This document shows positions 1,187 through 57,411 of a stretch of DNA of 64,000 bases, in pieces (positions within the stretch are counted from its first letter, which is position 1; every line of letters begins with the position of its first letter). Position numbers and translations under genes: made by a program. The stretch lies in contig JAJZJZ010000003.1 of the NCBI GenBank assembly GCA_021809755.1, positions 1-64,000 on the forward strand, read 5' to 3'. The DNA comes from Thermoplasmata archaeon. GTDB taxonomy: Archaea > Thermoplasmatota > Thermoplasmata > Thermoplasmatales > Thermoplasmataceae. The notes beneath the pieces were generated by a model that ran no database searches, had not been told where the DNA came from, and saw nothing but the letters and a program-made list of their open reading frames with translations.

Positions 1187-1219
1187 TTTATTAATCCCCC
1201 CCCCTCCCCTTTCGGTGCT
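1187..1219 (+). promoter_or_regulatory. Core promoter with TATA-like TTTATTAA (1187-1194) followed by homopolymer tract CCCCCCCCC-T-CCCC (1196-1209) before the ATG at 1220
   Basis: Read directly: ataaaatttattaatcccccccccTccccttttcggtgct-ATG region; box centre about 30 nt from ATG. Confidence 0.55.
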
Positions 1220-2152
1220 ATGGAACTAAGAAAAGCTCTATTATCCATAACAGCCATAGTAATTGTGATATTGTTCGTAGGTATGTCCATTAATCCAATA
1301 CAGACATCTTCCGTTGAACACGTTCAAAAACAATCGCAGAAGATTTCAGGAGATGGCACACCCACCTCCACTGCAATGAAAGCATATTCCCTGTTAAAAG
1401 AAAGTAACCTAAGTTTCATGTATACCAAAACCGTGATTTCCGGATCAGGGAATAGTAAAGTGCTTCATATTGAAATTGTATATAGCTATTCCTCAGCAAT
1501 GACCGCTCCTGAAATTGGCGAAAATATAACACAATTTTCACATGAAGGTAAAGTTAGCGTTAGTTTCAGAGGACATAGGATGTATATTACATCGAGTGTT
1601 CACATTACTGACAAATTAAATTTATCGAACACATATCACAACAGGGAGAATAGTCCCCTAATTGCCACTGATTCCATGCCGGGGTCTTTTTATTACCATA
1701 TTTATACTAAATCGCTGTCAGGATATAATGCGATACTATCGGTTACGAGGGTAGGGATTCCTCAGCTCAGCGTATATTCAGTTGCAACAGTTGGAATTAT
1801 GCTGGGAGAAGTAGTTGCATATGAGGAGGGGGCAATTATTTCCATTGATCCTGCAGCTGCTTCCATAGTTCCATATACCATAGCAATAATCGCTGCAGAC
1901 ACAGTGTATTTATATACCTATGCTCTGAGTCACCACGCACCAACAATATATATTGACGTAGGATTCAGCTATGGAACGCAATGGTATAATTTCTATAATA
2001 TTGGAGCATATGGTGAAGAAGGTATGTACATGAGCAATTATGATTCAAGTGGTGGATTGTATGAACCCTTGATGACATCATATGGACCGGGGACAGCTTC
2101 AATATTTAGCCATCATGGTGCATGGAACCCTAATGCACAGCCACCATGGTAA
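1220..2152 (+). CDS. Predicted exported/membrane-anchored protein with N-terminal TM segment and internal hydrophobic Ala/Gly-rich segment; unknown family, N-terminus resembles the 56397-57203 protein
   Basis: N-terminus MELRKALLSITAIVIVILFVGMSINPIQ parallels MKTNRVLMGVTAILIVILFIGVAMQPVN of the other protein; no enzymatic motif. Confidence 0.7.
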   Translation: MELRKALLSITAIVIVILFVGMSINPIQTSSVEHVQKQSQKISGDGTPTSTAMKAYSLLKESNLSFMYTKTVISGSGNSKVLHIEIVYSYSSAMTAPEIGENITQFSHEGKVSVSFRGHRMYITSSVHITDKLNLSNTYHNRENSPLIATDSMPGSFYYHIYTKSLSGYNAILSVTRVGIPQLSVYSVATVGIMLGEVVAYEEGAIISIDPAAASIVPYTIAIIAADTVYLYTYALSHHAPTIYIDVGFSYGTQWYNFYNIGAYGEEGMYMSNYDSSGGLYEPLMTSYGPGTASIFSHHGAWNPNAQPPW

Positions 2153-53869: not shown

Positions 53870-54634
53870 CTAATTAAACCATACTTGTGTGCCACTTCCA
53901 TATTCACTTATGAAAGCGTGAGATACCCCAGCAATACTGCCACTTAAAGCGATTCCTGCTACACCTGCATAAGCATATAATGGTACGTTGTACCAGAATG
54001 TATAAACGCCTCCTGCTGAATTCAAACCGTATAAACCAACGGATGAAGTTATAGAACCCCCTTCAGCATCCCATGGGTAATAGTAATTATTAACAAAATC
54101 TAGGTGAATATACGAATATCCAGTGCTTTCATAATAATTAGTCATTGTCGATGACTCATAAGTCATCCCAGCACCTATGATTAGTAAAGCGGCACCAATT
54201 GCCTGTCCCAAAAGCGGTATAGGTGAGAAGAGTGCAATTAAGCCAGCGGCTACGGTGCCATAACTAGCCACAGTAGTTAGGCTGTTCCAAGTATTAAAAA
54301 AAGACTGCGCTGATGAGCCATAATATTCTACATTGAAATTATCGGATTCTCCATATGTTACAGACCATCCTCCTAACCACCACGGGGCGGTATAGACATA
54401 ATAATTTATATTAACCCAAACCCACGGGTCTATAAAGTTTCCGGTTGGTGTAGTTACGTTTACCTTCCATGCTTCGTATTGAGTTCCATTAAGTTTCACC
54501 GTATATAAAGTACTATGATAATAGAATGCACCCTGCGAAGTATCGATTGTGGAATTAATGTATTTAACTGGTTTCCCTAAATTAGTTACCATCTCCATAT
54601 GTGGGACCGATAATTGGACATTTTCTTTTGACAA
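53870..54634 (-). CDS. Exported-type Tyr/Gly-rich protein lacking a recognisable signal segment; possibly a 5'-truncated member of the module family
   Basis: Central hydrophobic Gly/Ala hairpin LIALFSPIPLLGQAIGAALLIIGAG plus aromatic-rich flanks; the ORF opens only at TTG and is preceded by an in-frame stop. Confidence 0.5.
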   Translation of the reverse strand: MSKENVQLSVPHMEMVTNLGKPVKYINSTIDTSQGAFYYHSTLYTVKLNGTQYEAWKVNVTTPTGNFIDPWVWVNINYYVYTAPWWLGGWSVTYGESDNFNVEYYGSSAQSFFNTWNSLTTVASYGTVAAGLIALFSPIPLLGQAIGAALLIIGAGMTYESSTMTNYYESTGYSYIHLDFVNNYYYPWDAEGGSITSSVGLYGLNSAGGVYTFWYNVPLYAYAGVAGIALSGSIAGVSHAFISEYGSGTQVWFN

Positions 54635-55836: not shown

Positions 55837-56346
55837 TCATTTCAGAGATACCAGTTTATGCTTGTCATAATTTATTAAAAAGTAGAAAAGTAAACATGTT
55901 GAAACAGTGCCAAACAGAATGAAAGGAATTAGTATGAATACCACATTTCCCAGATATATCTGAAGAATAGAAGATGATGGAAAAGGGATATAAATTTCAT
56001 ATAGAAATGTAAAAGCGAACAACAACACAACAAGAGAAGTTAATGATACTTTAAAATAGAATTGAACATATTTTTTCTGTTTGTTGTACATCCAATCAGA
56101 AAATGATAAGGAAAAACCAAATTTTGTTAATTTTTTCGAATAAAAATACCAAACAATACAAAGTGGCAACATAAAAAATGTTATGAGGATAAGATTAACA
56201 TATCCCAATACCCTTTCAATAGGGTTATAGTTTGAAAAGTAAATCTCAGAATAATTTATAGCAATGAGTAACAGCCATAAAAGTCCAATTGTAATAATTG
56301 TTCTTTTGTACAGCAACAAATAATATTCTTTCGATTTTTCTTTCAT
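55837..56346 (-). CDS. Polytopic membrane protein (4 TM), partner of 56397-57203
   Basis: Four hydrophobic segments; 50 nt downstream of the exported-protein gene. Confidence 0.6.
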   Translation of the reverse strand: MKEKSKEYYLLLYKRTIITIGLLWLLLIAINYSEIYFSNYNPIERVLGYVNLILITFFMLPLCIVWYFYSKKLTKFGFSLSFSDWMYNKQKKYVQFYFKVSLTSLVVLLFAFTFLYEIYIPFPSSSILQIYLGNVVFILIPFILFGTVSTCLLFYFLINYDKHKLVSLK

Positions 56347-56396: not shown

Positions 56397-57203
56397 TTAG
56401 ATGTTCCCCTGATATAATGTTATTATGCCCTCTACATTACTTCCATATGGATCGAATGGAGCATTAATTTGAGTACCAGTGTAACTAAACCAGCCGATAC
56501 CAATAGTATAAGTAGTAAAACTTATTCCGTTTTGTCCTCCCATTTCGTCATACCAAGTAAAAATAGCACCACCTAAGAGAAATGCTGCGCCCACGAACCC
56601 TGCGGCCGGCCCTGAAAGTGCAGATTCAATTATTCCAGTGAACGCAAAGCCTGTCATAAATGTATCGAACATTTGCTGATTAAATCCAATTCCATTTGAT
56701 AATAAATACGCCGTCATATCTATATACAGACTGGGACCAACGTTTGAATTAGTTTTTTGTGAACTGCTATTATTGAATGATGTGCTTAATATTTTATAAT
56801 TTCCTGATGACGAGTATATCGGTATTAGTGTCATATTATTGGTTGAATTTATCATTATTGCCTGATGAAATAGTTTTCCGTTCATTGTTATGGTAACAGC
56901 CAATCCATGCACATTAGCACTACTTGAATTGTAAGAATCCCAAGTTATGTTCATTACTTCATTTGATACGTTTGATCCTGCCAGAAAAGGCGCATCATTT
57001 TTAATTTTTGTATTGTTGCTCATCGAATTAACTAAATTTAGATGGTGCTTTCCGGCAATATAACATAAAGAACCATTCCTACCATAGTTGTGAGGTGACA
57101 ATCCATTGTTAATTTGATTATTGACTGGTTGCATTGCCACTCCTATAAACAATATCACGATTAGTATTGCTGTTACTCCCATTAAAACTCTATTAGTTTT
57201 CAT
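56397..57203 (-). CDS. Predicted exported/membrane-anchored protein, N-terminally similar to 1220-2152
   Basis: MKTNRVLMGVTAILIVILFIGVAMQPVN N-terminus; internal ALSGPAAGFVGAAFLLGGAIF; start set at 57203 because the TATA-like box is 28 nt upstream. Confidence 0.65.
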   Translation of the reverse strand: MKTNRVLMGVTAILIVILFIGVAMQPVNNQINNGLSPHNYGRNGSLCYIAGKHHLNLVNSMSNNTKIKNDAPFLAGSNVSNEVMNITWDSYNSSSANVHGLAVTITMNGKLFHQAIMINSTNNMTLIPIYSSSGNYKILSTSFNNSSSQKTNSNVGPSLYIDMTAYLLSNGIGFNQQMFDTFMTGFAFTGIIESALSGPAAGFVGAAFLLGGAIFTWYDEMGGQNGISFTTYTIGIGWFSYTGTQINAPFDPYGSNVEGIITLYQGNI

Positions 57204-57234
57204 TAAACCCGAATTCCCCCCCCCCCGATATAAA
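57204..57234 (-). promoter_or_regulatory. Core promoter with TATA-like TTTATAT (57234-57228) followed by an 11-G homopolymer (57226-57216, minus strand) before the ATG at 57203
   Basis: Minus strand reads AATATTTATATCGGGGGGGGGGGAATTCGGGTTTAATG. Confidence 0.6.
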
Positions 57235-57411
57235 TATTGCGTGACACATAATAACATAGAGAAATACGACCCACTGAGAAAGCTCGAAAAGTATGAGTTA
57301 TGGTTACACTAAATCAAAGATGAGAAAATGTGTTCCAAATTCTGGTGGAACAGCAGATCAAATCGTAACATTAAAGCAATAAGAACAAGAATAAATCGAA
57401 GTGAGTATCTA

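Follow-up and report, generated by a model that had tools for sequence, protein, structure and literature searches.

Does a run of eleven G residues between the TATA box and the start codon of an archaeal gene act as a switch? The run lies on the minus strand of the stretch of DNA analyzed here, which is 64,000 nt long and is referred to below as the window. The window has a base composition of 38% GC and comes from a draft genome (G000) of 2.08 Mb in 179 contigs that is 86% complete. A preliminary description had placed this G11 tract between a TATA-like box and the ATG of a gene for an exported protein, and had put it forward as candidate transcriptional phase variation. The placement was confirmed (tract at 57216-57226, TATA box at 57228-57234, ATG starting at 57203), and the minus-strand layout through the tract to the ATG was as described, with positions 57256 to 57201 reading TGTTATTATGTGTCACG-CAATATTTATAT-C-GGGGGGGGGGG-AATTCGGGTTTA-ATG and 31 nt separating the first T of the TATA box from the ATG. 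The locus had been presented as a single one. It is real, but it proved to be part of a multi-gene system, of which a C9 tract at 1196-1204 and a conserved box upstream of the TATA box had been missed.

Features of the G11 and C9 loci; positions are numbered along the window
Feature	Position	Strand	Evidence or remark
Conserved upstream box TGTTATTATGTGTCACG	57240..57256	-	Promoter alignment; common to other family promoters
TATA box TTTATAT	57228..57234	-	Sequence; conserved in family; 31 nt from ATG
G11 homopolymer spacer tract	57216..57226	-	Sequence; longest G/C run in draft genome
Spacer AATTCGGGTTTA, tract to ATG	57204..57215	-	Sequence
Exported protein, 268 aa, signal peptide MKTNRVLMGVTAILIVILFIGVAMQP, hydrophobic hairpin near C-terminus	56397..57203	-	
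Membrane protein, 169 aa, about five hydrophobic segments	55837..56346	-	Immunity-like position (function inferred)
Homologue of family mature domain, without its own signal peptide	53870..54634	-	About 30% identical to E-plasma family genes
TATA region TTTATTAAT of second promoter	1187..1195	+	33 nt to ATG
C9 tract, same slot between TATA and ATG	1196..1204	+	Sequence
Exported protein P0002, 310 aa, same signal peptide type as G11 gene	1220..2152	+	
Membrane protein, 104 aa, directly 3' of P0002	2168..2482	+	Immunity-like position

The run had also been called striking. Under an independent-base model, our own arithmetic gives an expectation of about 0.001 runs of at least 11 G or C per 64 kb. 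Run length alone is nevertheless a weak argument at the scale of a genome, and location is the strong one. The entire 2.08-Mb draft holds exactly three G/C runs of at least 8 nt (G11, C9, and a G8 on contig C42 that separates a TATA box from the ATG of a gene whose product has the same signal peptide), and 3/3 occupy the slot between TATA and ATG, ahead of exported proteins that share one signal peptide type. Only G11 and C9, both in the window, reach 9 nt. About 2.7% of a related genome falls within 30 nt upstream of ORF starts, and by our own arithmetic the probability that all three runs would fall in the slot by chance is about 2 in 100,000. The three genes are paralogues and hence not fully independent; the shared signal peptide lowers the chance probability further. 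Where loci were returned and could be checked, runs of exactly 7 nt in the same genome were mostly scattered.

We extended the comparison to the genus, for which four draft genomes were used, the window genome and three others, at 83-96% completeness. One of these is Thermoplasmatales archaeon E-plasma, an acid-mine-drainage archaeon for which PMC10354927 names two sites, Iron Mountain and Parys Mountain. Seven of the eight runs of at least 9 nt in the four genomes lie in the slot. When 100 related genomes were scanned, the arrangement was present in all three other genus genomes and in a single genome from a neighbouring genus; in the other related genomes, runs of this length lie mostly outside the slot. 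A census of 1.55 Mb of E-plasma, taken as stretches, identified only one ORF start with a spacer G/C run of at least 7 nt among 405 with a TATA box at 27-34 nt, and that one was a family member. Simple repeats of all kinds numbered only about a dozen there at the thresholds used, and the (AT)29, (AG)11, G10 and (AG)7 repeats all belong to exported-protein genes of the slot kind or of the sister kind described below. Non-random placement of repeats, as expected of contingency loci, was therefore met in the window genome, in the genus and among the E-plasma spacers.

The aligned family promoters have in common a box, TGNNANNATGTNTCACG, directly upstream of the TATA box. It was seen at 57240-57256 of the window and in the L101, L103, L071, L109 and L051 promoters. 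Its conservation suggests a putative common regulator of the exported-protein set, which remains unidentified. We built a model of the box and TATA only, without any tract (R1), and searched 121 genomes with it. The strongest matches fall in this genus, and the G11 promoter scored 25.4 bits (57228-57256). The promoters used for training had first been found mostly via their tracts, so the set recovered with R1 is not fully independent of them.

In the members found with R1, the slot holds (AG)5, G3(AG)4, (AT)29 or no repeat at all, and a simpler search with the box pattern yielded interrupted tracts such as G5AG5 and G6AG4. The tract is missing from some members and interrupted in others, and is thus dispensable to the promoter. 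G and C tracts are one duplex read in opposite directions. Tract length was to be compared across related genomes, and it differs, as does the type of repeat. In place of the window's C9TCCCC, the syntenic E-plasma orthologue of P0002 (71% identity) carries C10; another pair of homologues has C10 versus C6; and paralogues have G12 versus G5AG5. In the L109 group, one species has G10 and the E-plasma homologues, about 60% identical, have (AT)29 or a short TATATATAT. At one of these sites (L262, E-plasma C2:157363-157420), (AT)29 stands in place of the TATA region, and two close paralogues have the short TATATATAT. Two further marks of a contingency locus were thus met, namely a slippable repeat in the core promoter (G8-G12, C9-C10, (AG)5 and (AT)29, all placed between TATA and start or overlapping them) and a difference in length between related genomes. 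All tract-length comparisons, however, were made between species or between paralogues, and none within one species or at the level of reads. This archaeal genus does have a family of promoters with repeats in the spacer, and the finding is larger than the preliminary description claimed.

We also considered a G-quadruplex role for the tract and rejected it: an intramolecular quadruplex needs four separate G runs and G11 is only one, and in other members AG or AT repeats take its place.

A spacer repeat could alter expression if the distance between TATA and start codon matters. That distance, counted from the first T of TATA, was 29-33 nt in 9/9 intact G/C promoters, which agrees with the leaderless-type spacing proposed at the outset and meets the criterion for a leaderless promoter, a TATA box about 29-30 nt before the start codon. 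The spacing fits leaderless initiation, for which we have no transcript 5' end data. In archaeal initiation the TATA box spans -30 to -23, and the DNA is melted from -11 to -2 (PMC6640164). From this TATA position we infer that the G11 tract covers about -21 to -11, and that RNA of the G11 gene starts about 2 nt before the start codon, near 57205, with corresponding distances of 0 to 4 nt across members; here too, 5' end data are lacking.

In the mechanism we propose, slippage by the polymerase would lengthen or shorten, by whole units, the repeat that separates TATA from the start codon. Slippage within a population is inferred, as are the start-site mechanism and any effect of tract length on expression. 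Since the pre-initiation complex initiates transcription a more or less constant number of nucleotides from the TATA box, and the genes appear leaderless, tract length would set the transcript start. A start at or just before the start codon would be ON, and one inside the gene or too far upstream would be OFF or weak. Loss of a few bases would move the transcript start inside the gene, and the E-plasma C6 copy, with only 25 nt from TATA to start, would be an OFF allele of this kind. Which part of the secreted-protein repertoire is made would thus differ at random from one cell lineage to the next. No MutS_V domain was detected in the four genus genomes in searches with positive controls, and no match to NucS_C exceeded the cut-off in the same genomes, again with positive controls. 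These are drafts and the absence is provisional, but in the absence of a MutS or NucS match slippage would stay uncorrected.

The same deficiency, if real, could account for the repeats without any switch. If there is no mismatch repair, repeats would expand in unconstrained sequence and the spacer would merely tolerate them, an account that draws on the lack of MutS and NucS matches and on the poor conservation of the spacer sequence. We find it quite unlikely, since hardly any repeats so long occur in other spacers or elsewhere in intergenic DNA; they cluster instead at a single family of exported proteins with a single upstream box. It is also conceivable that the G/C tract is a fixed element, serving as a site for a regulator or an architectural protein or through the stiffness of its DNA, with no slippage switch involved. 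The slot is conserved across paralogues and species, and G and C runs provide the same duplex, as such an element would. Homologues, however, substitute AG and AT repeats for the tract, its length is anywhere from 6 to 12, some versions are interrupted or free of repeats, and sister genes have their repeats in coding DNA, and we regard a fixed element as unlikely.

Phase variation could instead be translational, with the protein beginning at an upstream ATG (57257), the G tract being coding and slippage shifting the frame. The frame from 57257 is indeed open through G11 (a 286-aa ORF), the G8 gene on C42 likewise has an open frame from an upstream start, and coding repeats do occur in the sister (AG)n family. 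We nonetheless consider this very improbable. Conservation does not extend to the upstream starts, and four of the 12 members compared have in-frame stops ahead of the tract, so in those four the tract is not coding. Moreover, an N-terminal extension would bury the signal peptide, and translation would run through the conserved TATA box and upstream box.

In our preferred reading, G11 serves as spacer in an archaeal core promoter that is subject to phase variation; it is one of a genus-wide set of simple-sequence contingency loci and acts via the spacing between TATA and start. We give this a probability of roughly 0.7. Transcriptional phase variation, first raised only as a candidate, was supported by every comparative test available. 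A more specific version holds that the E-plasma lineage has a dedicated switch in the slot, consisting of the shared box and TATA with interchangeable repeats, in which length decides whether the leaderless transcript keeps its start codon and each cell makes a random subset of toxin-like proteins. Phase variation would then work through promoter spacing in a way specific to leaderless archaeal genes. We offer that version tentatively, as a possibility we would not yet bet on.

Repeats are also found inside genes of the lineage. In a related exported family (MYSVVTERERERE...), six loci from four genomes (L204, L187, L181, L182, L189 and L184) have an (AG)n repeat shortly after the gene begins. 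Counted from the ATG, one repeat region is in frame (19 nt) and five are out of frame (23, 15, 14, 23 and 21 nt), while the downstream frames stay long, at 123 to about 500 aa in the DNA examined. The family therefore meets the criterion for a contingency locus of the coding type, in-frame and out-of-frame alleles with an intact downstream frame. As far as sequence alone can tell, these alleles show the classical signature of translational contingency loci, and show that the lineage carries repeat switches.

In other Thermoplasmatales we observed G9-G11 tracts within the signal-peptide codons of exported proteins (L041 and L067 in G079, L038 in G087, L039 in G091, L040 in G081 and L083 in G008). 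Counted from the signal-peptide ATG, only the G11 copy keeps the frame, the copies with G9 or G10 being out of frame, and most of the genes have long intact downstream frames. These look like putative frame-switching contingency loci.

What the switched proteins do can only be inferred. The exported proteins had no Pfam match over the cut-off and no NCBIfam family; weak Pfam matches (polyoma VP2, C25 peptidase and Bax1-I) fell below the cut-off and were rejected. AlphaFold models had a mean pLDDT of 34 for P0001 and 28 for P0002, too poor for a fold search. Most of the hairpin-type exported genes are followed within about 50 nt by a gene for a small protein with hydrophobic segments, and our guess, by analogy, is that the exported protein and the small membrane protein may form a bacteriocin/immunity-like pair.

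All that remains at the E-plasma site syntenic with the window cassette is a decayed relic (C3:12128-12394, in L209) that still encodes the same signal peptide, and on this basis exported-protein cassettes appear to turn over quickly. A second E-plasma relic of the exported family lies at C3:128458-128989 (in L215) and is followed by a small membrane-protein frame. In the window, the signal-peptide-less homologue at 53870..54634 is probably a decayed or silent copy. An IS5-like transposase fragment (2592-2996) separates the P0002 cassette from the next conserved gene. In E-plasma, a reverse-transcriptase-like ORF (L114:2621-3901), judged group II intron-like from its sequence only, lies directly upstream of the P0002 homologue, which has no normal start codon there. 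A search of genome contigs for P0001 relatives found none, and neither P0002 nor the box-TATA-G6 pattern was found in viral contigs, so that these sources supplied no strain variants.

In the study of bacteria and their hosts, phase variation through simple repeats holds a central place. Repeat switches of this type are well known in bacteria, and in the open-access literature, subscription papers being outside our scope, we found no report of phase variation in archaea and none joining it with Thermoplasmatales. If our reading is correct, bet-hedging with secreted proteins evolved in archaea outside host association, in free-living acid-mine organisms. The family would also be a natural test of how strictly TATA-to-start spacing governs leaderless genes. 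A 2025 review lists archaeal phylogenies as a future expansion of phase-variation work (PMC11868660). A survey of homopolymeric tracts in 81 bacteria and 18 archaea was confined to coding sequences and reported poly-A and poly-T (PMC2831843). Promoter-spacer tracts were outside the scope of that survey; the archaeal (AG)n exported family resembles frame-switching loci with repeats at the 5' end of the gene.

Archaeal bacteriocins of the sulfolobicin type have immunity proteins, and the exported hydrophobic proteins beside small membrane proteins are similar in arrangement, although no direct comparison was made. In Haemophilus influenzae, the divergent fimbrial promoter of hif has a (TA)n repeat in its spacer, a dinucleotide repeat in a promoter comparable to the (AT)29 and (AG)n of the archaeal slot; unlike hif, the archaeal family consists of separate genes with one promoter type and interchangeable repeat units. 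In Neisseria, porA and opc have poly-G or poly-C tracts in their promoter spacers, between or near the -35 and -10 hexamers that are read by sigma factor. The archaeal loci are like these in that the gene encodes a surface or secreted protein and the spacer of its core promoter contains a G/C homopolymer, whose length would set promoter strength. They differ in that the archaeal tract lies between TATA and the start codon of an apparently leaderless gene, in a promoter read by TBP and TFB.
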